From Gloeobacter morelensis MG652769 (GTDB lineage Bacteria > Cyanobacteriota > Cyanobacteriia > Gloeobacterales > Gloeobacteraceae), in assembly GCF_021018745.1 (NCBI RefSeq), contig NZ_CP063845.1, positions 4,340,001-4,404,000 on the forward strand: a DNA stretch of 64,000 bases. The letters are read 5' to 3'. The notes under the pieces were generated by a model that searched no databases, was not told the origin of the DNA, and worked only from the letters and a program-made list of their open reading frames with translations. The translations under genes were made by a program, and so were the position numbers. Below are positions 5,142 through 51,491 of this stretch, one piece after another; the first letter of the stretch is position 1; each line of letters begins with the position of its first letter.

Positions 5142-5296
5142 GAATGGGAGTTCCGGTGAGCTTGAAAAAGCGGGAAACTCCATCGAGGTTCTAGATAAGA
5201 ATCGGGACAATTTCAGTAGAAGGTCTGGGGTTTTCGCTTGGGAAGATTTTCAAACGTTGCACCGCTTTGCGGACCTGGGCTACTATAAAAAAGCCT

Positions 5297-5392
5297 GGGC
5301 CCGTGCGGCTCGGACGCCCGAACCGTGTCAGGACCTGACGGTAGCAGCACTAAGGGATGCTCTGGGCAGGCGCGTGGTTCCGGGTTTTTTCA
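5297..5392 (+). ncRNA. ffs: Signal recognition particle RNA (4.5S type)
   Basis: The conserved SRP domain IV is readable: 'gtcaggacctgacggtagca' spans 5328-5347 and continues gcactaaggg, matching the bacterial GUCAGG-UCCGGAAGGAAGCAGC block. The outer arms 'cccgaacc' (5318-5325) and 'ggttccggg' (5378-5386) pair, closing the hairpin. A T run follows at 5386-5391. The 5' end is not exact; small bacterial SRP RNAs are about 95-115 bases. It would pair with Ffh for co-translational membrane targeting. A 100-codon ORF that overlaps it is not credible. purA begins about 80 bases downstream. Confidence 0.82.
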
Positions 5393-36253: not shown

Positions 36254-38167
36254 ATGCAAGTCCAACCGCGCATCGAAAAAAAACACGTAGACAGAGCGAT
36301 CGAAGCGAGCCAGGCGTACCTATTGGGCCGTCAGTACTCCCCGGGCTACTGGTGGGCCGAACTGGAGTCGAACGTGTCGATGACCGCCGAGGTGGTCCTC
36401 CTGCACAAAATCTGGCGCACGGACACCGGCCGTCCCCTCGCCAAGGCGACCGCCTACCTGCTGGGTGAGCAGCGCGCCCACGGCGGTTGGGAGCTGTTCT
36501 ACGGCGACGGCGGCGATTTGAACACATCGATCGAGGCGTACATGGCCCTGAAGCTGCTGGGTCTCGCCGCCGATCACCCCGCCCTGGCGCGCGCCCGCGC
36601 GTTTATCCTCGCCAAAGGCGGCATCAGCCGCGCGCGCATCTTCACCAAGATCCACCTGGCGCTCATCGGCTGCTACGACTGGCGCGGCGTCCCGTCGATT
36701 CCACCCTGGGTGATGCTGCTACCCGAGGCCTTTGCGGTCAACATCTACGAGATGTCCAGTTGGGCGCGCGGCAGCACGGTACCGCTGCTGATCGTCTTCG
36801 ACCGCAAGCCGGTCTTTGCCGTCGAGCCGGCCATCACCCTCGACGAGCTATTTGTCGAAGGACGCACCCGGGCCCGCTTCGATCTACCCCGCAGCTCGAG
36901 CGACTGGTGGGCGAATCTGTTTGTCGATCTCGACTGGGGTTTCAAGCTCGCCGAGAGTCTGGGGGTGGTTCCCCTGCGCGAAGAAGGGCTGAAAGCCGCC
37001 GAGCGCTGGGTGCTCGAGCGCCAGGAGGCGACCGGTGATTGGGGCGGGATTATCCCGGCGATGCTCAACTCGCTGCTGGCGCTGCGCTGCCTCGATTACG
37101 ACCCCCACGACCCGGTGATCGAGCGGGGGATGGCCGCGGTCGATCGCTTCGCCATCGAGACCGAAAGCACCTATCGCCTGCAGCCGTGCGTCTCCCCCGT
37201 CTGGGATACGGCCTTGACCATGCGCGCCCTGGTCGATTCGGGATTGCCGCCGGATCACCCGGCCCTCGCGGCGGCGGGCACCTGGCTACTGGAGAAGCAG
37301 ATTCTCGACTACGGCGACTGGGCGGTTAAAAACCGAACCGGATCGCCCGGCGGCTGGGCTTTCGAGTTCGACAACCGCTACTACCCGGATGTAGACGACA
37401 CAGCCGTCGTGGTGATGGCCCTCGACGCCGTGCAGCTGGCCGACGAGACCGCCAAGGGCCAGGCGATCGCCCGGGCGGTGCGCTGGGTAGCCTCGATGCA
37501 GTGCCAGGGCGGCGGCTGGGCGGCCTTCGATATCGACAACGACGCTCACTGGCTCAACAGCCTTCCCTACGCCGATCTCAAGGCGATGATCGATCCGAAT
37601 ACCGCCGATGTCACCGCCCGGGTGCTCGAGATGTACGGCCGTTGCCGCCTGATTCCTGCGGCCGCCGGTGCCCAGCGCGCCCTCGATTATCTGCGGCGCA
37701 CCCAGGAGCCGGAGGGCTGCTGGTTCGGCCGCTGGGGGGTGAATTATCTCTATGGCACCAGCGGCGTGCTCTCAGCTCTGGCTGCCTTCGCCCCGGCCGA
37801 ACGCACGGCCATCGAGCGCGCTGCCGCCTGGCTGCGAGGTTGCCAGAACGTGGACGGTGGTTGGGGGGAAACCTGCCAAAGTTATGTCGATCGCACTTTG
37901 ATGGGCCAGGGACCGAGCACCGCTTCCCAGACTGCCTGGGCGTTGCTCGGCCTCATCGACGCGGGCCGGGTGGCCCGCTTCAGCGACAGCAGCGCCCTCG
38001 AACGCGGCATTGCCTATCTGGTGGAAACCCAAAAAGCGGACGGCAGTTGGGACGAACCGTACTTCACCGGCACCGGTTTTCCGGGGCATTTTTACCTGAA
38101 GTATCACCTCTATCAACAACACTTTCCTTTAAGTGCTCTGGGCCGCTACCGCCGCCTGCTCAGTTAG
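36254..38167 (+). CDS. shc: Squalene-hopene cyclase
   Basis: The enzyme cyclises squalene to hopene/hopanol, giving membrane hopanoids. The 637-residue length is standard. The catalytic 'DVDDTA' is at 379-384, and QW-type repeats (e.g. 'LEKQ..YGDWAVKNRTGSPGGW', 'QCQGGGWAAFDIDN', 'CQNVDGGWGE', 'TQKADGSWDE') are present. The C-terminal 'FTGTGFPGHFYLKYHLYQQH' is family-specific. It is followed by squalene synthase, so substrate and product enzymes are paired. Confidence 0.97.
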   Translation: MQVQPRIEKKHVDRAIEASQAYLLGRQYSPGYWWAELESNVSMTAEVVLLHKIWRTDTGRPLAKATAYLLGEQRAHGGWELFYGDGGDLNTSIEAYMALKLLGLAADHPALARARAFILAKGGISRARIFTKIHLALIGCYDWRGVPSIPPWVMLLPEAFAVNIYEMSSWARGSTVPLLIVFDRKPVFAVEPAITLDELFVEGRTRARFDLPRSSSDWWANLFVDLDWGFKLAESLGVVPLREEGLKAAERWVLERQEATGDWGGIIPAMLNSLLALRCLDYDPHDPVIERGMAAVDRFAIETESTYRLQPCVSPVWDTALTMRALVDSGLPPDHPALAAAGTWLLEKQILDYGDWAVKNRTGSPGGWAFEFDNRYYPDVDDTAVVVMALDAVQLADETAKGQAIARAVRWVASMQCQGGGWAAFDIDNDAHWLNSLPYADLKAMIDPNTADVTARVLEMYGRCRLIPAAAGAQRALDYLRRTQEPEGCWFGRWGVNYLYGTSGVLSALAAFAPAERTAIERAAAWLRGCQNVDGGWGETCQSYVDRTLMGQGPSTASQTAWALLGLIDAGRVARFSDSSALERGIAYLVETQKADGSWDEPYFTGTGFPGHFYLKYHLYQQHFPLSALGRYRRLLS

Positions 38168-38346
38168 ATGTGGCCAGCAAGACCGGCGCCAGTTCACCGC
38201 TCAATCTGGCAGAAACAACCCGGTTTTGTTGCGAGTGTGTCGCCGCTCGGGGGGTTGAGCGAAGGTCGGGTATGCGCGCGATCAGATAACAAATCCGGTA
38301 AGCTCATCGTAAAATTCCTAGATGGTGTGTGCAGGGGTGAAGAACA

Positions 38347-39438
38347 ATGCAAGGTACCCATGGGGCAACCGGGGGTCAACAATCTGCTTTGCTATTTTGC
38401 AACGCAATTCTTCCCCGGGTCTCCAGGACTTTCGCGATTAGCATCCGCTTTTTACCGGGTCGACTGGGCAGGGCTGTCCTCACCGCTTACTTGCTGTGCC
38501 GGATAGCCGACACGATCGAAGACGATCCGGCGGCGAGCGCGGGCGAGAAGGTGCGACTTTTGGGCGAATTTATGGCGGGTTTTGACGAGGTTGAGACGGC
38601 CAGAAAGTTTCCGACTCTGGCGCAATCGGTGAGCGGCGAGGCGGCCCACGTCGAGCTGGTCCACCACACCGATTTGGTCTTCGAGTTGTTCGAGGGCGTA
38701 CCCGCTCCTTCGCGCCAAATCGTCAAGCGCTGGGTAGGCGAGATGGTCGCAGGGATGCAGAAGTTTGTCGCCCTCTATCCCCATGGCATCCGCATCCAGA
38801 CGCTCGAAGAATACAACGAATACTGTTATTACGTCGCAGGCACGGTAGGGCATCTGCTCACCGACCTGTGGCATGCCCACGCCCCCAGCATCGATCAGGC
38901 CAAGTACACGGCCCTGCTCAAGCATTGCGAGGCCTTCGGCGAGGCGCTCCAGACGGTCAATATTCTCAAGGACATCGCCTGGGACGCCGAGCACGAAAAT
39001 TCGATCTATGTTCCTGAGCAATCGCTGCGCGAGCACGGCAGCAGCCAGCAGACCCTGCTCAGCCCGCACTGTCTTGAGCAGAACCGGGCAGCAATCGCCT
39101 CGCTGGTGGCTCTGGCCTGGACGGATCTCGACGCCGCCCTCGTCTATTTGCTTGCCATCCCCCGGCGGGCCGTGCCGATTCGTCTGTTCTGCATTCTGCC
39201 GCTGCTCTTTGCCTACGCCACGCTACGCGAGATTACCCGCTCGACGGCGATGCTCACCAGCGGCGGCACCGTCAAAATCTCGCGCGAAGAGGTCAAATCG
39301 CTGATGATGGCCGGAGTAGCCACCGTCTTGAGCAATCGCGGGATCGAACGGCTGGTTGCGCGGGTGCGCACCGACGCTTATGGGTTGGGGTGGGGGGGAT
39401 CCCCCCCCTGCCCCCCCCTGCCCAAGGGGGGGTCGTGA
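38347..39438 (+). CDS. Squalene synthase (squalene/phytoene synthase family)
   Basis: The 363-residue protein condenses two farnesyl diphosphates. It has 'VSRTFAISIRFLP', first Asp motif 'DTIEDD' (55-60), 'YCYYVAGTVGHLLTDLW', and second motif 'QTVNILKDIAWD' (DxxxD at 209-213). It is nearer to eukaryote-type squalene synthases than to phytoene synthase, and the position after shc supports squalene. The last 15 or so residues ('WGGSPPCPPLPKGGS') come from a G/C-tract repeat and are probably not functional. There is no C-terminal membrane anchor. Confidence 0.9.
   Translation: MQGTHGATGGQQSALLFCNAILPRVSRTFAISIRFLPGRLGRAVLTAYLLCRIADTIEDDPAASAGEKVRLLGEFMAGFDEVETARKFPTLAQSVSGEAAHVELVHHTDLVFELFEGVPAPSRQIVKRWVGEMVAGMQKFVALYPHGIRIQTLEEYNEYCYYVAGTVGHLLTDLWHAHAPSIDQAKYTALLKHCEAFGEALQTVNILKDIAWDAEHENSIYVPEQSLREHGSSQQTLLSPHCLEQNRAAIASLVALAWTDLDAALVYLLAIPRRAVPIRLFCILPLLFAYATLREITRSTAMLTSGGTVKISREEVKSLMMAGVATVLSNRGIERLVARVRTDAYGLGWGGSPPCPPLPKGGS
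39391..39432. repeat. G/C-tract palindromic repeat in 3' end of squalene synthase
   Basis: gggggggatcccccccc followed by two 'tgccccccc'-type units and 'cccaagggggg' form interleaved inverted repeats. Such G/C-tract elements are dispersed in many cyanobacterial genomes. Here the open frame runs through it, adding a Gly/Pro tail to the protein; it may also act as a terminator. Confidence 0.65.
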
Positions 39439-39470: not shown

Positions 39471-39866
39471 TTACACTGTGGCCGATGAGGCTGGGGCGAG
39501 CAGTTCGATGGGCAGGCCGTCGGGGTCTACGACAAAGGCAACCGTGAAGGTCCGATCGCCAATCTGCTGCGGGCGGGGTTCGAGCAGGACCGGGACGCCC
39601 GCCTGTTGCAGGCGCCCGACGAGCGCGGGTACGTCTTCGACTTCAAATGAAGTGTGGTAGTAGCCGGTGTAGTGCTCGTCGAACCAGCTTTCGGGAGCAG
39701 GTTTGGGTTCGGGGATTTGAATGAGTTCGATGCGGCCCAGGGGGCCTGTCAGCCAACAGGCGAGGGTCATGCCGGTGGTGAAGCGCACCTCGACGGTGAA
39801 GCCCAGGAGTTCGTAAAAGGCCATCGAGCGAAAAATGTCGGCGGTGCGGATCGAGACGTGGTGCAT
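39471..39866 (-). CDS. VOC/glyoxalase-fold protein
   Basis: The 131-residue protein is a vicinal-oxygen-chelate domain: 'MHHVSIRTADIFRSMAFYEL' with the metal-ligand-type His, 'GRIELIQIPEP' with Glu, 'YYHTSFEVEDVPALVGRLQQ' with His, and 'AFVVDPDGLPIELL' with the terminal Glu. Glyoxalase, dioxygenase or resistance roles are all possible. Its ATG shares a base with the stop region of the upstream gene, so the two are coupled. Confidence 0.88.
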   Translation of the reverse strand: MHHVSIRTADIFRSMAFYELLGFTVEVRFTTGMTLACWLTGPLGRIELIQIPEPKPAPESWFDEHYTGYYHTSFEVEDVPALVGRLQQAGVPVLLEPRPQQIGDRTFTVAFVVDPDGLPIELLAPASSATV

Positions 39867-40174
39867 CAGCTTTTTCCTTCGAGGCGGGCGATGAGCAACT
39901 CCGCCACGGCGTTGGCCACGACAAATTCGCTGCAGGCGGTCATCGCATAATCGTCGTGGCGCATCTCGGCAAGCAGGACAACGTGGATGGAAGCGAGCAG
40001 ATCCTCGCCCTCCATGCGCTGGCGGGCGTAAATCGATGCGGCGCGCTCGGCAATGTGGGGGTGGATCGCCTCGGCCAGAAATTCGCGGTCGAGCCAGGCG
40101 AGCAGCGCCCCCGCGAGCCAGCGTCTTTCGGACTCCACGTCGGTGGCCGGGGGCAGCCAGATGTCCTGTACCAT
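39866..40174 (-). CDS. Hypothetical protein upstream of the VOC gene
   Basis: From 'MVQDIWLPPATDVESERRWL' the 102-residue protein is helical, with 'AIHPHIAERAASIYARQRME' and 'LLAEMRHDDYAMTACSEFVV'. No membrane segment or signal. Similar sequences occur in cyanobacteria as far as I recall, but no function is known to me. It overlaps the VOC start. Confidence 0.6.
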   Translation of the reverse strand: MVQDIWLPPATDVESERRWLAGALLAWLDREFLAEAIHPHIAERAASIYARQRMEGEDLLASIHVVLLAEMRHDDYAMTACSEFVVANAVAELLIARLEGKS

Positions 40175-40281
40175 GGCTCCAACTCTACCAGCCCCGCCCC
40201 GGGTCGGTTCAGTCTCTCGGGCAGGTTTGCGCACCGGTGGGTTGCGGTAGGATGCTCTTTGAATATTCGCAGAAGGACGGT

Positions 40282-40584
40282 ATGGAAGAAGCTTCCGCGC
40301 GGATGAGCTGGTTCGACGAAGGACAGGGCCTGACGCACCTGTCGGAATATTTTCAGCGCATGGAGTCCTGGCAACAAGCGATCGCCGATGGCGTCATCAC
40401 CCCCGAAGAAATTCGCGAGCAGGCGCAACGGGTGATCGGGTTGCTCAAAGAAGTGGAGCCGCTGGTGGGCGAGACCGAACGGCGGACGATCACCGAGACC
40501 CTCTACGAAATGGCCGTGCTGGGGGCGATGCAGACTTCCGCCGTCTCCGCTTCGCTGCGGACGGCTGCTAAGGGGGAAACATGA
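40282..40584 (+). CDS. Helical protein, first of a paralogous trio
   Basis: The 100-residue helical protein follows an 'aagga' site at 40273. Its core 'YFQRMESWQQAIADGVITPE' is nearly repeated in the C-terminal half of the gene at 41039 ('FFQRMESWQRAIADGRIDQE'). Its stop overlaps the start of the next gene (ATGA), so translation is coupled. No known domain. Confidence 0.72.
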   Translation: MEEASARMSWFDEGQGLTHLSEYFQRMESWQQAIADGVITPEEIREQAQRVIGLLKEVEPLVGETERRTITETLYEMAVLGAMQTSAVSASLRTAAKGET

Positions 40585-41027
40585 AAGTCAAGGCGTACAA
40601 GATTCCCGATACTTCGCCCTCGTTCCTGGCGACGGCTATCGAGTCGTGGTTTCGCTCCGAAGGGTTCGAGGCGCAGAGTTTCGCCGGCCCGGAGGGGACT
40701 TACGTGATCCAGGGGCGCAAGGACAACTTTCTGCGTTTTATCGTGGGGCTTTCGGCGGCGCTCACCGTCACAGTCGGTACGCAGCCGGACGGGGCGCTCA
40801 CCGTGGCCATCGGCGCGGGCAGCTGGGTGGACAAGTTTCTAGCCGGCTTTGCGGGGGTGTTTTTGTTCGCTCCCCTCGCCTTTACTGCCGCCTACGGCGT
40901 CTGGAAACAGGACAATCTCGAAGACAAGCTCTGGGAATATATCGCCGGACGCCTGCCCGCAGCGGTCGAAGTCCCGGTGCAGATTCCCGCCCCCCAGTTT
41001 CACCCGGTCAAGCTGACTCCCTCCTGA
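40581..41027 (+). CDS. Membrane-associated protein, second of the trio
   Basis: The 148-residue protein has an alpha/beta N-terminal part ('FLATAIESWFRSEGFEAQSF') and a hydrophobic segment near residues 85-108 ('FLAGFAGVFLFAPLAFTAAY'). It is paralogous to the N-terminal half of the next gene: both have 'W(F)xxxxFExQSFA', 'ALTV', 'GGxWxDK'. Function unknown; together with its neighbours it may form a membrane complex. Confidence 0.72.
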   Translation: MKVKAYKIPDTSPSFLATAIESWFRSEGFEAQSFAGPEGTYVIQGRKDNFLRFIVGLSAALTVTVGTQPDGALTVAIGAGSWVDKFLAGFAGVFLFAPLAFTAAYGVWKQDNLEDKLWEYIAGRLPAAVEVPVQIPAPQFHPVKLTPS

Positions 41028-41038
41028 GGACATCCACC

Positions 41039-41776
41039 ATGCAAACCCGTACCTACAGTGCGCCGGGGATCACGGCCGAGGCCCTCGCCGAGAGGGTGCG
41101 CGCCTGGTTCGTTGAAAAAGAATTCGAAACCCAGTCGTTTGCTACGGCGGGCGGTGGCCAGATCGTGCAGGGCTACCGCGACGATTTTTGGCGGGTGGCG
41201 GTGGGGCTCGCTGCGGCCCTGACCGTGCAAATCAAACCGCTGCCGGGGGACACTCTCGAAGTGAACATCGGGGGCGGTGCCTGGGGCGACAAGCTCTTTG
41301 TAGCCGGGATCGGTCTGCTGCTCTTTTTGCCGTTGGTGCTGCCCGCCGCCTGGGGCACCTGGGAGCAGTACCGCCTCGACAAAGATGTCTGGGAAGCGAT
41401 CGAAGCGGCGCTCCCGGCGGGCAGTTCCCCGGTCGCATCTGCCCCCGCCGAAGCTGCCCCCGCCGCCGAATTGCCCGACACCTGGTTCAACGAAGAGACC
41501 AACGAGATCTATTCGGTACAGTTTTTTCAGCGCATGGAGTCGTGGCAGCGCGCCATCGCCGACGGCCGGATCGACCAGGAAGAGATCCAGAGCCAGGGCG
41601 AGCGGGTGACGGACTTGCTTCGTCGTTTGGAGCCTACCCTCAGCGATGAAGCCCACGCCAAGCTCACCCAGGTGTTTCGCGAAATGGCGGTTCTGCAGGG
41701 GATGCAGTCGTTCGTGCTGGTGCAGCAGATGGGCAGTGCCGCCTCAGGCCCAACCCCGAAGCCGGTAAACGAGTAG
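41039..41776 (+). CDS. Fusion paralogue of the two preceding genes
   Basis: The 245-residue protein has an N-terminal half (1-125) like the gene at 40581, with a transmembrane segment 'LFVAGIGLLLFLPLVLPAAW', an Ala/Pro linker (126-148), and a C-terminal half (150-245) like the gene at 40282. So the separate order (helical, membrane) is fused as (membrane, helical). This implies the two domains act together. Its 3' end overlaps the convergent ydcF-like gene by 33 bases. Confidence 0.78.
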   Translation: MQTRTYSAPGITAEALAERVRAWFVEKEFETQSFATAGGGQIVQGYRDDFWRVAVGLAAALTVQIKPLPGDTLEVNIGGGAWGDKLFVAGIGLLLFLPLVLPAAWGTWEQYRLDKDVWEAIEAALPAGSSPVASAPAEAAPAAELPDTWFNEETNEIYSVQFFQRMESWQRAIADGRIDQEEIQSQGERVTDLLRRLEPTLSDEAHAKLTQVFREMAVLQGMQSFVLVQQMGSAASGPTPKPVNE

Positions 41777-42778: not shown

Positions 42779-43012
42779 TCTGTCCACCCAGTTCTTGCGG
42801 AGCCTCGTGCAGTCTATTGGCTGCAACGGCTTTTTTGGCTCTGACTGCCGTCAAAGCGGCTAACTTGCCTGCCTGCCTGCTTTGCGTTCTATAGTTGCGC
42901 CGCAATGCCCCCGACAGGCCACAGTCCCTGCTGAACATTTGACTGACCGATGGTATTTTCGTCGCCACCGGTTATTACTTCCATGACAAATTAACCTACT
43001 CTTGCTGTGGCT

Positions 43013-46000
43013 ATGGTATCCCGTTCCATCGGTTTTTTCGCGCGCAAGCTCTTCAGCCTGCTCGTCATCTTTGTGATGACCTGTAACCAGTTGATCCTGC
43101 CGGCGAGCGCTGCTGTCGATGTCACCCAGGGCTTCTACTCCTACGACACGGTGGATTTGACGCTCGGCGGCACCTACCCGCTTTATGTCTGGCGGCACTA
43201 CCAAAGCGCCAATCAGGACGGCACACCCATTGGCAACCGGCCAGGACCGTTCGGCCTTGGCACCCACATGGGCTTGTATAGTTTGCGGGCAGAAACCGTC
43301 AGCCTGGAGGGGAAAACCCAGGTTCGCCTCTGGATGCCTACCGGCGGCCAACAGTACTTTGTCAATAGTGTGACACCGGGTCTTTACGCTAACCAGAACC
43401 CAAGTGATCCTATCCGCGGAACGGTCGAGGTCGCAGGCGAAGAGATCACGCTCACCGTCGAAAGCGGCACCAAGCTGAAGTTTCGGGCCAAGGCGGACGG
43501 CACGCGCACCCTCGAATCGATCGCCAACCGCTTTGGCAAGGCCATCACCTTGAGTTACTCGGGCAGCAAACTTACCCAGGTTACAGACCCTTTCGGCCGC
43601 TACATCGCCTTCAAGTACGAAAATACTACCTTCCCGTCTCAGGTCACCCGGGCAGAGTTATTTGATGATGGCGGCCAGAGTTTCGGGTTTGTCAAGTACG
43701 CCTACAACAGTGCGGGGGACCTCAAAACCTTCACCAATGCAATCGATGGCAAAAGCGTCGCCACCGTGGGCGGTACCCGCGTCGCAAAAGGGCAAACCCA
43801 ATACACCTACAACAACCACTATCTGCAGACGATTAAAGAGCCGAGGGGTATTGTCAAGCTCACCAACACCTACGGCAACTACAACACCACAGGCACCGCC
43901 GGCAAGGTCACTCAGCAGAAGTTGCCGGGTGCCAAATCAACTGTGACTTCGGACGATATTATCAACCGTTATGTCTACAACCCCGACAACACTGTCGTCA
44001 ATGACACCCGCAATCAGACAGCCGGTGAGATCACCGTGGCTTTCGACCCTGAAAAACAGAACGTCACACAGGTTAGCCATGCCTTCGACGGCAGCAGCAT
44101 TTCTATGGGTTATGACTCGGATTCTAATCTGTTGAATTCTTTTGTAAACACCTTTGACCAGGCCACCAGTTTCTCCTATGTGAACGACACCCCGTTTTAC
44201 CATCTCTCTGCCATCGAACTAGCCGACGGAAGCACGACCGATTTCAGTTTTACCGGTCCTTTTGGCCAGCTTCAGCAAGTCACCAGCGCCGAGCAGCACT
44301 CCACAACTTTTACCTATAACCCCGAAGACGATGCCTCCAAGGGTTCGTTGCAATCGGTGGCCGATCCATTGCCTGCAAGCACAGAATTTAATGCTTACAA
44401 TAGCCACGGTCAATTGCTCGAAAGCACCGACGGTCTAGGCCGAAAGTCTACTTTTATCTATCACGATGAGGCCTCCGGAGGCTACCAAGATCTTCAATCA
44501 GTCATTGATCCCTCTGGAGTCGATCGCTGCTTCAACTACGACAAATTCTCGCGTATCAAAGAGGCCTATTTCTGCAAGTTCAGCGGCCAGAAAACCCTAT
44601 TTGCTTACGACCAACTCAACCGCGTCATCAGCGTCACCGAGCCCAAGCAAAACAACACTTCTCGGGTCACAAAGTTTACTTACGACGACAACGGCAACGT
44701 CACCGGTGTGATTGCCTCCAATGGTGTAACGACTACCTACGCCTACAACGACCAAGATCAACTCGCCAGCCGCACCGAAGGCAATAGAACAGAAAGTTAC
44801 CAGTACAATAACCTGGGCTTACTCGAAGAGTACATCGATAAAAAAGGGCAAATCACCGGTTATACCTACGACGCCAAGCAGCGTTTAGAGAAAGTTACCT
44901 TCGCGAAGGGCTTTTCGAGTAGCACCGCGTTGACATACAGCTACAATGAACAGGATAAACCCATCTCAATTACCGACAGCAGTGACGCTTCTGGAGCCAA
45001 GGACATCCAGTTTGTCTACGAGACGGGCAGCAGTCAGGTAGGCCGCCTCAAGCAGGAAATCACCGCCCAGGGCACGCTCGATTACGAATATGATTCCGTC
45101 GGCAATCTCCTCAGTGTCAAGCGCGGTGGAACGGCCTTGCTGCGCTACGAGTACGCCAATGACGATGCCAGTTTACTTGCCGCTACGCTTGGGGGTGACG
45201 CCTCGGCAACAGAGCTGCGCATCGCTTTTGGCTACGACCCATCTGGCGCGCTTGCAACCATCACTTACCCCGGAGGTTTGAGCGGTACTTTTGCTTACAA
45301 CAGTGCCGGGGATATCGCCAGTCAGACTTTCGCTTCTTCTGCCGGTACTTTGCGTCAAATTGATTACAGCTACGATTACGAGCAGAGCGGCGTCAACGGC
45401 AAAGGCTACCTCAAAAATCGGACCGAGTCGGGCACTGTCGCCAACGCCCGCATCCCCGGCATCGCCGTCAGCCAGAGCTTCAACTATGACGAAATCGGCC
45501 AACTAACCTGCACCCAGACCAACGGCAGCGCCACCAGTTGCCCCAACACCGGTGCGGGGGTGTATCTCACCAGCTACGACCTGGACGGCAACGCGGTATC
45601 GATCTCCAACAGCGGCACGACCAGGAACCTGACTTACGAAAGCGCGCCGCCGACCAACCGTCTGACCGCCTCCGGCTCCACGACCGTTGACACCGATGCC
45701 AACGGCAACATCCTCAAAGACCCCGACGCGGCCTATGTCTGGAATGCGCGGGATCAACTGACCCAAGTCACCTACGGCGGCAAGACCACAAAATTTACTT
45801 ACGACGCGCTGGGTCGGCGGATCTCTGCGACCACCGACGGGGTGAAGACGCAGTACGTCTACAGCGGCGATCAACTCATCGAGGAGAACACAGACGGTAC
45901 TAAAAAACGTCACCTGGTGGCGTTGGGTCTGGACTCTGTGCTGGCCAGCCGCACGGGCACGGCTGATGAGTATTACCTCAAGGACGCCTTGAACGGTTCG

Positions 46001-49000
46001 GTGGCGGCGGCGGTGGCCGGGGGCAGCAGCCCCTCGGTGAAGACCGGCTACGGTTACAGTCCTTTTGGAACCGTCAGCACCGCCAGCGGCAGCCCGGCGA
46101 GCGCCAACGCCTTCCAGTTTGCCGGGGCGCAAAAGGACGCCTCGGGATTGATCTATCTGCGCAACCGGTACTACTCGCCGAAGTTGCAGCGCTTTATCAG
46201 CGAAGACCCGATCGGTTTTGGCGGGGGAGATACCAACCTGTACCGCTATGTCGGGAACACCCCGCATACGGACAACGACCCGACGGGCCTGCGGCAAAGC
46301 GGCCACGCGGCCCGCGGGGTCAGTTCGGTATACGGCCTGCGCGCGAACACTGCGGCGCCTCAAGCCGCAGCCCGCAGGCCCGCCCCGGTCCCGGCCGCAG
46401 CGGTGGCGCGTCTTTCCCCCGCGCAGCGCCCTCCGGCCGCCCCGTCCCAGTTGGCCCAGGCAGCTACTCCCCCAGCGGCTCCGGCAGCCACTCCCCCAGC
46501 AGCCCCGGTGACGCTCCACAGCCGACCCGCCGCTCCGGTCCCGCCGCAACAGGCCGCTTCCGCGTCGGGAAAAAGCCCTGCGGCACGCTGGCGAAACGCT
46601 TCGAAGCAGTCGGGCGCTACCGAGAACAGCGTCGGGACTTACAGCCTCACCGCCGGGACCACCATTCCCATCCCCTTGTTTTTCGAGTGCTTCGGATGCA
46701 GCCAACCGGTCGATCTGCGCATCGACGGCGGCCTGCCGTCGGGTGCTTCCGGCAGTTTCCAGCCTGATCCGCTCAATGTCTCACCGGTGTATTCGCTCTA
46801 CGAGTTTGCGCTGATCATCGCCACCTCGACCACCACGCCACCGGGCACCTACACCGTCACTTTCTCCGCCACCAGCTCAGAAATCGGCACGGTCACCTCG
46901 ACGCTGCAGCTGCAGGTACAGCCAACCCCCAGCCAGACGATCACCGCAGGCGGGTCGGCCACCTACCCTTTCTTTTACAACTGTCCGCCGGAGTGTCCGC
47001 CCGCCAGTCTGAGCGTGTCGGGATTGCCCTCCGGCGCCGGCGGCAGCTTCAATCCCAACCCGGTCTCGGCGGGCCAGAATTCGACGCTGACGGTGACGAC
47101 GCCCAGCAACCTCGCCCCCGGCACCTACACGCTCACCATCAACGGCAGCGCCAGCGGGGTGACGATCTATCCACTGCCGGTGTTTTTGACCGTCAACGCC
47201 GCTCCCACCGTGGCGCTCTCGGTCGCTCCCACCAGTGCGACGGTCAACCAGGGTGCCACGGCCAGCTACACGATCAACCTGGCACGCAGCAATTTCACCG
47301 GCCCCGTCGAACTGTCGGTAAACGGTTTGCCTTCCGGCGCCCTCGCTTCGATCGCTCCTTACCCGACGACGGGCAACAGTTCGACGCTGACGATCACCAC
47401 CGACAGCAGCACAGCAGCCGGTACCTGGCCGCTTACGATAAACGGCACAGCCTCGGGTGCATCGGTCGCCTCGGCTTCGGCAAGTTTGACGGTCAATCCG
47501 CCTCCCAATGTGGTCCTTTCCGCCACTCCTGCCAGTTCGACAGTTTTTCAGGGCTCGACGGCCACCTACACCGTCAACCTGGCGCGCACGAACTTTTCAG
47601 GCAATGTCGACCTCTCGGTGAGTGGTTTGCCTTCAGGAGCGACGGCCACCATCAGCCCGGACAACACCACCGACAGCAGCGCCACTTTGACGGTGACCAC
47701 CAGCACCGGCACCGCCGTCGGCGCAAAGACGCTCACGATCAGCGGTACTGCCTCGGGGGCCACGGTTAGTGCGACCACGGTCAACCTCACGGTCAACCAG
47801 CGTTACTTTGGGAATCTCGATGGCGTCACCTGCAGTGCCATCAGCGGCTGGGCGCTCGACCAATCGCAAATCACCACCCCTATCAGCGTCGATATTTTTG
47901 CCGACGGCCTGCTCCAGAGCACCGTGCTTGCCGACGGCTTCCGTCCGGATGTCGGTGCCATTTACGGTAATGACTACCACGGCTTCAGTCTGAGCACGCC
48001 CGCCTCACTATTCGACGGGGCAGCCCACAGCATCGATGCCTTTATTGCCGGTACGGGCATCCGGCTGGGCAGTGCTCCCAAGACCCTCACCTGTGCCCCT
48101 CCGGCCGTGGCTCTCAGTGCCACTCCCACCACGGCAACGGTCAACCAGGGGGCGACCGCCAGCTATACCGTCAACTTGGCGCGCACCAATTACACCGGCT
48201 CGGTGGACCTGTCGGTGAGCGGTTTGCCTGCCGGCGCCCTCAGCTCGCTCGCCCCGGATCCGACCACAGGCACCAGTGCGGCCCTGACGATCACCACCGA
48301 CACCACCACCGACACCGGGGCGAGCACTCTGACGATTGGCGGCACCGCCTCGGGGGCGGCGGTGAGCCCAGCGACTGTCAGCCTGACGGTCAATGCCGCT
48401 CCGAAGGTGACTTTGTCGGCCACCCCCACCAGTGCCACGGTGCTCCAGGGGGCAACCGCCACCTACACCGTCAATCTGACGCGCACCAACTTCACCGGTG
48501 CAGTCGATTTGTCGGTCAGCGGTCTACCTACGGGTGCGACGGCCACCCTTAGCCCGGACAACACCACGGCCGGCAGTGCCACTTTGACGGTGACCACCAG
48601 CACCGGTACCGCCGTCGGCACCAAGACCCTCACAATCAGCGGTACTGCCTCCGGGGCGACGGTCAGCTCGACCACGGTCAACCTCACGGTCAACCAGCGT
48701 TACTTTGGGAATCTCGATGGCGTCACCTGCAGTGCCATCAGCGGCTGGGCGCTCGATCAATCGCAAATCACCACACCCATCAGTGTCGATATTTTTGCCG
48801 ATGGTGTCTTGAACACGACGGTGCTCGCCAACGGCTTCCGTCCGGATGTCGGCGCCATCTACGGCAATGACTACCACGGCTTCAGCTTGAGCACGCCCGC
48901 CTCACTGTTCGACGGGGCGGCGCACAGCATCGATGTGTTCATTGCCGGGACAGGCATCCGGCTGGGCAATTCTCCCAAGACTCTCACCTGTGCCGCTCCG

Positions 49001-50926
49001 GCCGTGGCCCTCAGTGCGACGCCCACCACGGCCACGGTCAACCAAGGCACGACCGCCACCTACACCGTCAATCTGACGCGCAGCAACTTCACAGGCTCAG
49101 TCGATTTGTCGGTGAGTGGTTTGCCCCCAGGAGCGACCGCCACCTTCAGCTCTGACCCGACGACCGCCAACAGCGTCACCCTCAGTGTGGCGACCAGTAC
49201 TGCCACGGCCACCGGCGCTAAGACCCTGACCATTGGCGGCACCGCCTCGGGAGCGACCATCACCCCGACGACCGTCAGCCTGACGGTCAATGCCGCTCCC
49301 ACCGTGGTTTTGAGTGCCACCCCCACCAGTGCGACCGTCAATCAGGGGGCGGCCGCCAGCTACTTCATCAATCTCACCCGCAGCAATTTCACCGGCTCGG
49401 TGGACTTGAATCTCAGCGGTCTACCTTCGGGAGCGACCGCCAGCTTCACTGCCGACCCGACGACGGGCACCGCGGTCACCTTGAACGTGGCGACGACCAC
49501 TTCCACCGCCACCGGCACCAAGACCTTGACCCTTGGTGGTACCGCCTCGGGAGCGACCATCACCCCGACGACCGTCAATCTGACGGTCAACGCCGCTCCG
49601 AAGGTGACTTTGTCGGTCTCCCCAGCTACTGCCACCGTTGCCCAGGGCGGGTCGGTGCCTTTGACGGTCACGCTGACGCGCACCAACTTCACCGGTGCAG
49701 TGGACCTGAACTTCAAAGGTTTGCCTTCTGGGGCAACCGCCAGTTTCAATCCCGACAACACCACCGCGACCAGTTCAACCCTGACGGTCAGTGCTAACCC
49801 GACGGCGGCTCCTGGCAGTTACACACTGAGCATCACAGGCAGTGCTTCAGGAGCCACGGTGACGGGCACCTCTGCCTCGGTCTCGATCACCGCCACGGGG
49901 GCACCACCTGCGGCCCAACTCGACTTGAAGCTGGCCGCCGAGCAGATTGACTTGACGGCGGGAGTGCCTGATTGGTTGGGGTTTGTGCCGGTGCTCGGTT
50001 CGGCTTTGCAGGCGCTCGGTGATTTTCAGGCGGGTCGCACCGGTTGGGGCATCGTCAACACACTGCTGGCGATTTCTGACTTGTTCCCGGCCAAAGCGTT
50101 GACCACTGCGGCGGCGCGGGCGGGATTGCGCGGAGTGGGTCGGGCGGTGGTGGCTGGGTGCACTTGCTTCGCGGCGGGCACGCTGGTGGCCACCGAAGTA
50201 GGAGCCAAACCTATCGAGCGAGTTGAACCGGGCGAAAAAGTCTTGGCCAAAAATGAGCACACCGGCGAGCAGACATTGCGCAGGGTCAAGAGTACCTTTC
50301 AGTTTGACGAACGGCCCGTCTACCGGTTGGAGTTGCGCGAAACCGATGGGGCTGGTGAGCGTGATGCGCTGACGGTGACCGGCGAGCATCCGTTCTTCCT
50401 GCAGGACAAGGGCTGGACACCGGCAGAGCGACTGAAGAGCGGAGATCGGGTGCAGGCAGCTGATGGAGGCTGGCTGCGGGTAACCGGACTGGCGGCACAA
50501 GAGCAGGCGCGGAAAACGTACAATTTGGAGGTCGAGGGGGACTACTCCTTCTTCGTCGGCGACACCCAAGCCTGGGTACACAACGCTTGCCCCAATCCCT
50601 TTGGTAAGCTCGGTGATCCCGTTACTCAGAAAACTGCAAATAGTGTAATTTCAGATCTCCAAGCAAGGGGATTTACGCGAGTTCGACAAGAAGTTCCCTT
50701 TGCTAAAGGTCCTTTTGGAACAAGGAACAGGTTTGTAGATATCATCGGCACAAATCCGGCTACAGGCGAGTCTCTTTTGATCCAAATTGGCAAAGTTACA
50801 AAGCGCGGAGTGCCAGTTATTCGTGAAAGAAGAGCTTTGGACGACATAATCTTTTCTCCAACCATTAGGGAATTCCCCAGCTCGCGTATAATCTTTGTCG
50901 AGAAGGGTAAACTTGGGCTTCCTTGA
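43013..50926 (+). CDS. Secreted RHS-repeat polymorphic toxin with Ig-like stalk, HINT domain and toxin tip
   Basis: About 2,637 residues. A signal peptide ('VMTCNQLILPASAAVDVTQG') is followed by YD/RHS repeats to about residue 1090, closing with the RHS-core end '..RFISEDPIGFGGGDTNLY' and 'DNDPTGL'. A Pro/Ala linker, two divergent and about seven similar ~100-residue Ig-like repeats, and two copies of a 'GNLDGVTCSAISGWALDQS' domain follow. A HINT domain begins at 'CTCFAAGTLVATEVGAKPIE' and ends 'QAWVHN'. The last 113 residues are the tip, with 'RNRFVDIIGTNP..LIQIGK' suggesting a nuclease-like fold. GTG 43007 is an alternative start. The immunity gene is 22 bases downstream. Confidence 0.92.
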   Translation: MVSRSIGFFARKLFSLLVIFVMTCNQLILPASAAVDVTQGFYSYDTVDLTLGGTYPLYVWRHYQSANQDGTPIGNRPGPFGLGTHMGLYSLRAETVSLEGKTQVRLWMPTGGQQYFVNSVTPGLYANQNPSDPIRGTVEVAGEEITLTVESGTKLKFRAKADGTRTLESIANRFGKAITLSYSGSKLTQVTDPFGRYIAFKYENTTFPSQVTRAELFDDGGQSFGFVKYAYNSAGDLKTFTNAIDGKSVATVGGTRVAKGQTQYTYNNHYLQTIKEPRGIVKLTNTYGNYNTTGTAGKVTQQKLPGAKSTVTSDDIINRYVYNPDNTVVNDTRNQTAGEITVAFDPEKQNVTQVSHAFDGSSISMGYDSDSNLLNSFVNTFDQATSFSYVNDTPFYHLSAIELADGSTTDFSFTGPFGQLQQVTSAEQHSTTFTYNPEDDASKGSLQSVADPLPASTEFNAYNSHGQLLESTDGLGRKSTFIYHDEASGGYQDLQSVIDPSGVDRCFNYDKFSRIKEAYFCKFSGQKTLFAYDQLNRVISVTEPKQNNTSRVTKFTYDDNGNVTGVIASNGVTTTYAYNDQDQLASRTEGNRTESYQYNNLGLLEEYIDKKGQITGYTYDAKQRLEKVTFAKGFSSSTALTYSYNEQDKPISITDSSDASGAKDIQFVYETGSSQVGRLKQEITAQGTLDYEYDSVGNLLSVKRGGTALLRYEYANDDASLLAATLGGDASATELRIAFGYDPSGALATITYPGGLSGTFAYNSAGDIASQTFASSAGTLRQIDYSYDYEQSGVNGKGYLKNRTESGTVANARIPGIAVSQSFNYDEIGQLTCTQTNGSATSCPNTGAGVYLTSYDLDGNAVSISNSGTTRNLTYESAPPTNRLTASGSTTVDTDANGNILKDPDAAYVWNARDQLTQVTYGGKTTKFTYDALGRRISATTDGVKTQYVYSGDQLIEENTDGTKKRHLVALGLDSVLASRTGTADEYYLKDALNGSVAAAVAGGSSPSVKTGYGYSPFGTVSTASGSPASANAFQFAGAQKDASGLIYLRNRYYSPKLQRFISEDPIGFGGGDTNLYRYVGNTPHTDNDPTGLRQSGHAARGVSSVYGLRANTAAPQAAARRPAPVPAAAVARLSPAQRPPAAPSQLAQAATPPAAPAATPPAAPVTLHSRPAAPVPPQQAASASGKSPAARWRNASKQSGATENSVGTYSLTAGTTIPIPLFFECFGCSQPVDLRIDGGLPSGASGSFQPDPLNVSPVYSLYEFALIIATSTTTPPGTYTVTFSATSSEIGTVTSTLQLQVQPTPSQTITAGGSATYPFFYNCPPECPPASLSVSGLPSGAGGSFNPNPVSAGQNSTLTVTTPSNLAPGTYTLTINGSASGVTIYPLPVFLTVNAAPTVALSVAPTSATVNQGATASYTINLARSNFTGPVELSVNGLPSGALASIAPYPTTGNSSTLTITTDSSTAAGTWPLTINGTASGASVASASASLTVNPPPNVVLSATPASSTVFQGSTATYTVNLARTNFSGNVDLSVSGLPSGATATISPDNTTDSSATLTVTTSTGTAVGAKTLTISGTASGATVSATTVNLTVNQRYFGNLDGVTCSAISGWALDQSQITTPISVDIFADGLLQSTVLADGFRPDVGAIYGNDYHGFSLSTPASLFDGAAHSIDAFIAGTGIRLGSAPKTLTCAPPAVALSATPTTATVNQGATASYTVNLARTNYTGSVDLSVSGLPAGALSSLAPDPTTGTSAALTITTDTTTDTGASTLTIGGTASGAAVSPATVSLTVNAAPKVTLSATPTSATVLQGATATYTVNLTRTNFTGAVDLSVSGLPTGATATLSPDNTTAGSATLTVTTSTGTAVGTKTLTISGTASGATVSSTTVNLTVNQRYFGNLDGVTCSAISGWALDQSQITTPISVDIFADGVLNTTVLANGFRPDVGAIYGNDYHGFSLSTPASLFDGAAHSIDVFIAGTGIRLGNSPKTLTCAAPAVALSATPTTATVNQGTTATYTVNLTRSNFTGSVDLSVSGLPPGATATFSSDPTTANSVTLSVATSTATATGAKTLTIGGTASGATITPTTVSLTVNAAPTVVLSATPTSATVNQGAAASYFINLTRSNFTGSVDLNLSGLPSGATASFTADPTTGTAVTLNVATTTSTATGTKTLTLGGTASGATITPTTVNLTVNAAPKVTLSVSPATATVAQGGSVPLTVTLTRTNFTGAVDLNFKGLPSGATASFNPDNTTATSSTLTVSANPTAAPGSYTLSITGSASGATVTGTSASVSITATGAPPAAQLDLKLAAEQIDLTAGVPDWLGFVPVLGSALQALGDFQAGRTGWGIVNTLLAISDLFPAKALTTAAARAGLRGVGRAVVAGCTCFAAGTLVATEVGAKPIERVEPGEKVLAKNEHTGEQTLRRVKSTFQFDERPVYRLELRETDGAGERDALTVTGEHPFFLQDKGWTPAERLKSGDRVQAADGGWLRVTGLAAQEQARKTYNLEVEGDYSFFVGDTQAWVHNACPNPFGKLGDPVTQKTANSVISDLQARGFTRVRQEVPFAKGPFGTRNRFVDIIGTNPATGESLLIQIGKVTKRGVPVIRERRALDDIIFSPTIREFPSSRIIFVEKGKLGLP
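47800..49000 (+). repeat. Two near-identical ~290-bp copies of a 'GNLDG' domain within the RHS gene
   Basis: Bases about 47797-48090 and 48694-48987 both encode 'YFGNLDGVTCSAISGWALDQ' through 'GTGIRLG..PKTLTC', with only a few differences. Each is spliced between Ig-like repeats, so the stalk is a tandem of larger ~900-base units made by duplication. Confidence 0.85.
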
Positions 50927-50948: not shown

Positions 50949-51491
50949 ATGGGTATTCAGGTCAGCTTCTACATGACGCCTCTGGATGAAAGTCGTTTTC
51001 TAGAAGAAATTAAAAAATTTGGGAATTATTCAATAGCTAGGAACACTTTTCGCAATCCAAAGGAGATGCTTGTGGAGCACTCTTCCGCATTAGATTGGAA
51101 GCTAGATGAACAGATGTGGTATTTATTCAGTACCGAGTTTGACTCACAAATCTACACGAAGTTTATCGAGACTATATCAACCTACACCGTTGATTTTGTC
51201 GAATCGGAAGTCATACAGTTTGCCCGATCCCACAAATCCCAAGATTGGCTTAGCAATGGAAGGCTGTGGTACAGTAAAGTGCGTCTATCTGGAGAAAAGA
51301 ACCCGCAATTTCTGTCTTGGGCTAACAGAATAATCAATTTTATCAGAAGGAATTACCAAAAAAAATCCACCGGGATTTACTATGTTGGCCCAGATGCATT
51401 AATGAAGAGTAATGAAGGACATCTTCAACTTGGGCCGAGTTTTGAACCGTCATGGGACGAGATACGAAAAAAACTTGAGTCAGGGCAATAA
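50949..51491 (+). CDS. Candidate immunity protein for tip 1
   Basis: The 180-residue protein ('MGIQVSFYMTPLDESRFLEE') follows the RHS stop by 22 bases. Its DNA is clearly AT-richer than the RHS gene, as usual for toxin-immunity genes. It is rich in aromatic residues and soluble. Position, strand, size and composition define it as the cognate immunity gene; no family is recognised. Confidence 0.75.
   Translation: MGIQVSFYMTPLDESRFLEEIKKFGNYSIARNTFRNPKEMLVEHSSALDWKLDEQMWYLFSTEFDSQIYTKFIETISTYTVDFVESEVIQFARSHKSQDWLSNGRLWYSKVRLSGEKNPQFLSWANRIINFIRRNYQKKSTGIYYVGPDALMKSNEGHLQLGPSFEPSWDEIRKKLESGQ

Follow-up and report, generated by a model that had tools for sequence, protein, structure and literature searches.

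The window, a stretch of 64,000 nucleotides from the genome of Gloeobacter morelensis MG652769, carries a compact trio of small genes on the plus strand, the third of which unites in a single chain the domains that the other two encode separately. Gene 1 (40282..40584), recognised as an open reading frame by its translation, encodes a stand-alone C domain, an acidic protein of 100 aa with three predicted helices that is homologous to the C part of gene 3. Gene 2 (40581..41027) encodes a stand-alone N domain of 148 aa ending in a tail conserved among the Gloeobacterales. Gene 3 (41039..41776) encodes a protein of 245 aa in which BLASTP against genes 1 and 2 delimits an N domain, a linker and a C domain. 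Its N domain covers residues 1-126 (41039..41416) and is followed by an Ala/Pro-rich linker (41417..41479), visible in the sequence and the alignment, and by a C domain of residues ~148-230 (41480..41728), placed by BLASTP, alignment and the AF2 helices 159-174, 180-200 and 203-234. The stop codon of gene 1 and the start codon of gene 2 overlap as ATGA, 11 bases lie between genes 2 and 3, and the three genes form one tight operon. Two terminators were observed within or around the trio against 1.8 expected, so a split of the operon is not indicated.

The sequence-only reading had described gene 3 as a fusion of homologues of genes 2 and 1 lying beside both separate genes, and the alignments bear this out. 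The N part of gene 3 is identical to gene 2 at 53 of 127 positions (BLASTP, E 8e-29) and its C part to gene 1 at 39 of 92 (E 3e-23), so that for each domain the fused and the separate version share about 42% identity. Local alignment scored 270 for the N pair (shuffle maximum 58) and 193 for the C pair (shuffle maximum 55), scores reached by 0 of 1000 shuffles in either case, and the negative control, gene 1 against gene 2, stayed at shuffle level. The shared block that had caught the eye in that reading is also present, as YFQRMESWQQAIADG at residue 23 of gene 1 and as FFQRMESWQRAIADG at residue 162 of gene 3. All three are real, constrained genes under purifying selection: dN/dS was 0.06-0.23 in the seven of 12 pairwise comparisons with dS below 2 and 0.065 for gene 2 against its counterpart in G047, at a dS of 2.2, the remaining four being saturated. 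Additionally, the C-terminal tail of gene 2, EVxVxxPxxxFxPVxLx (window 40956-41024), is kept in 8/8 gene 2 proteins, and relatives in Chloroflexota carry zinc ribbons at the same site. It is perhaps a short binding motif, still putative.

The surroundings of the trio are of mixed character. Divergent from gene 1 on the minus strand lies a small conserved gene of unknown family (39866-40234), which occupies the same place in two other genomes (G033, G072) and gave no Pfam row of weight. Further upstream, a squalene-hopene cyclase gene adjoining a gene of the squalene/phytoene synthase family makes up a small hopanoid cluster (36254-39438). Downstream, an RHS-repeat protein of 2639 aa (43007-50926) has a pretoxin HINT domain close to the C end, and the small open reading frame after it (50949-51491) has no Pfam match; together they resemble an interbacterial polymorphic toxin and the corresponding immunity gene. 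A bacterial small SRP RNA is found at 5292-5389 (58.5 bits).

The known families offered little guidance to the trio itself. Neither domain reaches a cut-off in Pfam or NCBIfam, PHROG returned no row of weight for the three proteins, and PDB profile searches with them found nothing. PADLOC gave no defence match, its best row (E 0.03) belonging to a model named Unknown. A mobile or phage origin was considered and rejected, as no relative occurs in plasmids, phages or viral contigs and the best viral-structure match stands at E 0.022. Among the papers listed in literature searches, no title or abstract opening described the trio.

Structure prediction was more informative for the N domain. The AF2 model of gene 3, built on 20 sequences, has a mean pLDDT of 74.6 and a pTM of 0.58; within the N domain it is good for residues 1-50 and 61-80 and poor for 81-93 (pLDDT < 50). 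From this model the N domain is predicted to adopt a KA1/TBP-like alpha/beta fold, with a beta-alpha-beta-beta-beta-beta-alpha arrangement. By VIA-align, the N part of spermine synthase, the C-terminal domain of AMPK alpha and KA1 domains scored Z 9.2-9.6, the best rows having an rmsd of ~2.1-3.0 over 87-99 residues with many other folds of the class close behind. KA1 and AMPK chains stood at Z 9.5-9.6, unrelated chains lay within 1 Z and the fold class is crowded. Foldseek gave no row at E 0.001 for the N model, Pfam no KA1 row at E 5, and the best hit of a PDB profile search, at E 1.3, was unrelated. The likeness to the KA1/TBP-like fold lies in the predicted arrangement (Z up to 9.6), whereas the N domain differs from KA1 domains in having neither a sequence match nor a kinase and in carrying an extra hydrophobic stretch. 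A passage of PMC4958294 describes phospholipid binding at the membrane by the KA1 domains of yeast kinases.

This hydrophobic stretch is a consistent property of the N proteins. It comprises residues 86-104 in gene 2, with a central proline and conserved (window 40836..40892; Kyte-Doolittle mean 1.96 over 19 residues), and residues 86-104 in gene 3, likewise conserved (41294..41350; mean 2.45). All Gloeobacterales N proteins examined have a 19-residue hydrophobic stretch from residue 86-88, and across N proteins of every kind, 28 of 31 have a mean hydropathy of at least 1.6 over 19 residues, with values up to 2.6. One explanation is that the stretch forms the core helix of a KA1-like fold, buried inside it, and that the two domains form the same complex in soluble form, as a cytosolic adaptor or ligand-binding assembly with no role at the membrane. 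AF2 does place a long helix, residues 97-124, within the fold, where it takes in much of the stretch; the block pLDDT is 85-88 for residues 111-130, and a helix occurs at this position in KA1-type domains. However, residues 81-93, which form part of the stretch, have a pLDDT below 50, and a mean hydropathy of up to 2.6 together with a conserved proline would be unusual for a soluble core. A soluble complex is considered rather unlikely, and the working place of the pair is probably the cell membrane.

For the C domain, the AF2 model of gene 1 (mean pLDDT 78.4) consists of three helices, 19-35, 41-61 and 64-96. No known fold was matched at the sensitivity of these searches, the five Foldseek rows all having E > 7 and the best VIA-align row a Z of 2.4, an outcome that says nothing on whether the fold is new. 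Like SHOCT and DUF1707, the C domain appears to be a small helical adaptor with an 'A..DG.I..EE' turn, and some relatives of the N domain bear true SHOCT tails. SHOCT and DUF1707, however, are short two-helix modules, and the C domain is modelled with ~90 aa and three helices over ~80 residues. Membership of these families was not supported: gene 1 scores 13.1 bits against DUF1707, for which the Pfam cut-off is 27.6, and has no SHOCT row. Weak DUF1707 rows occur for 3 of 16 C domains (best E 0.011), and hhalign of the C-domain profile against SHOCT tails aligned 17 columns at 3.3% probability.

Within the cyanobacterial class, the gene 2 query found matches in 26 of 388 genomes and the gene 1 query in 13 of 388. 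Nine of the matched genomes, the own genome included, belong to the same genus, family or order, and the counts for the trio refer to matched genomes. The trio is complete and tight in eight of these nine Gloeobacterales; in the ninth (G104) the contig stops within gene 2. Named records of this set are Aphanocapsa lilacina HA4352-LM1, uncultured cyanobacterium PMM_0068, Gloeobacterales ES-bin-313 and Candidatus Cyanaurora vandensis LV9. Two genomes (G083, G094) possess an additional cluster of gene 1 and the fusion without gene 2. A fourth, stand-alone copy of the C domain lies beside coaBC in six genomes, directly 3' of it in all six carriers. The copy in the own genome, away from the trio, begins within the end of coaBC, which encodes a flavoprotein of CoA biosynthesis (L096:4852-6323 = C1:2845351-2846822). 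The gene coaBC also adjoins an N-C fusion in the Chloroflexota genome G921, and in G083 about 2.6 kb separate it from the second cluster. Besides L096, the loci L097:5751-7800 and L103:5475-10413 belong to these coaBC observations. A coaBC link was set aside as the main reading, being post hoc. The remaining 17 gene 2 matches, in other cyanobacteria, comprise 14 N-domain proteins and three that look like chance (L028-L030) and were dropped. Pfam scans of 9 of these 14 proteins gave six SHOCT tails, two zinc ribbons and one without a tail match, and no C-domain gene was found within ~1.5 kb of the 14 N genes. Four gene 1 matches in other cyanobacteria (L044-L047), situated in long frames unrelated to the trio, were likewise discarded as chance.

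The pair also extends beyond the cyanobacteria. A scan of genome contigs gave three loci outside them: two, in a Thermoflexus (L084) and an Anaerolineae genome (L085), have a C-domain gene and immediately after it an N-domain gene that also encodes zinc ribbons, and on a Polyangiaceae contig (L086) the C-domain gene terminates near the contig end. The C profile matches 3 of 301 genomes in Chloroflexota and 4 of 235 in the Polyangiaceae phylum. The N domain is present in 4/4 Chloroflexota genomes known to have the C domain and in 0/4 of the C-bearing genomes of the Polyangiaceae phylum. Three of these Chloroflexota genomes have split C-N pairs, 0-12 bases apart, with an N protein ending in zinc ribbons, and in the fourth (G921) an N-C fusion of 260 aa comes after a truncated C gene of 65 aa. 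In the Polyangiaceae phylum two C genes follow an AAA ATPase gene; at L099:4110-6730 and L100:5329-8883 the C-domain gene has an AAA ATPase gene on one side and on the other a small conserved gene whose family is not known, with ABC-transporter-like genes upstream.

The N domain alone is more widely spread, with matches in 37 of 281 Chloroflexota genomes. Among eight Chloroflexota N proteins scanned with Pfam, five long ones continue into a zinc ribbon and an FHA domain and three short ones into zinc ribbons alone. An N-only gene stands beside a long N-zinc-ribbon-FHA gene in 6 of the 11 Chloroflexota regions fetched (L134-L144), and one further region of the 11 holds two long FHA-type N genes in tandem. 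These Chloroflexota proteins resemble the trio in having the same N domain and, often, a bare N gene alongside; they differ in that the tail is not a C domain and that a PadR-like regulator is the neighbour in four loci (L135, L136, L140, L143), as Pfam confirmed in 4/4 tested. The N domain is a module of wider occurrence that can bear zinc-ribbon, FHA or SHOCT tails, so that its fusion to the C domain would be one of several tail swaps.

Two domains found together in this way need not touch each other. Repeated duplications could have left paralogues adjacent as mere genomic neighbours, a possibility to which the many genomes with N without C or C without N lend some weight. In two phyla, however, the genes are fused or lie 0-15 bases apart, an arrangement that is hard to keep without a functional link, and simple neighbourhood seems very unlikely. 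Because the same pair recurs in a distant bacterial phylum, the N and C domains are instead likely working partners, as judged from sequence. The trio further resembles composite ('Rosetta stone') fusions, in which the two halves are homologous to separate proteins and the genes are split in some genomes and joined in others, and it differs from them in keeping the split and the fused forms side by side in one operon.

The phylogeny of both domains speaks for related origins. In the N tree, gene 2 forms one clade (100/99), the gene 3 N parts of the order form another (94/95), and the two join at 80/49, which is weak. In a wider N tree, gene 2 and the gene 3 N parts join with the G921 fusion at 88/79, and the 18 Gloeobacterales rows on their own, G921 set aside, group at 77/29. 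The Chloroflexota FHA group stands apart from Gloeobacterales there (99/94), and its N-only genes are not one clade. The C tree of all rows gives 81/56 for gene 1 and 75/95 for the gene 3 C parts. After omission of long branches (5 of 33 rows), these values become 92/96 and 90/92, and the two groups unite with support of 94/91, to the exclusion of the Chloroflexota and fourth-copy rows. Neither C tree includes the truncated C gene of G921, and rooting was by midpoint. The unrelated origins that would have undone the proposed kinship of the halves were not seen. The AU test did not reject a single fusion clade including G921, with p-AU values of 0.339 in the N and 0.355 in the C domain.

Accounts of how this arrangement arose differ in the direction of change. 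The favoured one, drawn from the trees, is that both domains were duplicated before the radiation of Gloeobacterales and that one copy was fused. The C-N gene pair would have been duplicated as such, one copy would have become a single N-C chain, and both forms would have been retained. Since a split C-N pair exists outside the order, in Chloroflexota, split-then-fused is the simpler order. In the reverse direction, the fused N-C chain would be ancestral and the separate genes would be partial duplicates of it that lost one half. Such fission can draw on the truncated C gene that precedes the G921 fusion, on the compatibility of one fusion clade including G921 with both trees and on the second clusters of two genomes, which pair gene 1 with the fusion and lack gene 2; against it stand the three other Chloroflexota genomes with a split C-N pair and a zinc-ribbon tail on N, and the greater number of steps that splitting would take. 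Fission is regarded as improbable. The duplication-fusion history put forward by the sequence-only reading is largely borne out, as duplication of both domains and fusion fit the trees, but in view of the G921 fusion and these p-AU values the fusion may also be older.

Taken as products of a duplicated pair, the domains may be assigned a role, which we propose with slightly less than even confidence: N as a platform at the membrane surface and C as a partner adaptor, both binding and location being inferred. The N domain would lie on the inner face of the cytoplasmic membrane by means of its hydrophobic stretch and the C domain would dock onto it, the gene 3 product representing the covalently tied form. 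The products of genes 2 and 3 would assemble into a hetero-oligomer through their N domains, and the ratio of fused to free subunits would fix the proportion of C sites. Counted in favour of the platform are the homology of both halves, the conservation of the trio, the Chloroflexota C-N pairs and fusion, the trees, the folds and the hydrophobic stretch, as well as the N-only genes beside N-zinc-ribbon-FHA genes in Chloroflexota. Counted against it are the possible burial of the stretch, much of which is held by the AF2 helix 97-124, the crowded class to which the fold match belongs and the lack of any hit in PDB sequence searches, the fourth C copy standing alone away from the trio in the same genome, and the occurrence of N without C, as in most other N-bearing cyanobacteria and Chloroflexota, and of C without N (4/4 genomes of the Polyangiaceae phylum). 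As N and C are each found alone, neither strictly needs the other. Regarding possible analogues, a role of SHOCT-like domains in tethering proteins at the inner membrane is proposed in PMC11237479, which also connects membrane-stress systems with zinc-ribbon and PadR-like partners, and PMC3581485 reports that a SHOCT domain did not serve as an oligomerisation domain in its authors' test. Both would fit a membrane-surface adaptor role.

The recurrence of the same platform with zinc-ribbon, zinc-ribbon plus FHA and SHOCT tails elsewhere suggests a general scaffold for signalling or assembly at the membrane surface, and the tie of N to FHA and zinc-ribbon proteins hints at phosphorylation-linked signalling. 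More speculatively, and on balance doubtful though still a real possibility, the N domain would found an undescribed bacterial family of membrane-surface platforms, hetero-oligomers in which a bare subunit combines with a tailed one and the tail (C, zinc ribbon, zinc ribbon plus FHA, SHOCT) can be exchanged. Gloeobacterales and a Chloroflexota lineage would each have arrived separately at the layout of bare beside tailed. If true, this separately reached layout would make the mixing of subunits the conserved principle. For two unnamed domains, the link by operon and fusion in two phyla already yields a direct prediction of partners. Gloeobacterales are cyanobacteria without thylakoids that carry out photosynthesis in the cytoplasmic membrane, as stated in the abstract of PMC13326532, so that a conserved scaffold at the surface of that membrane would be worth knowing.
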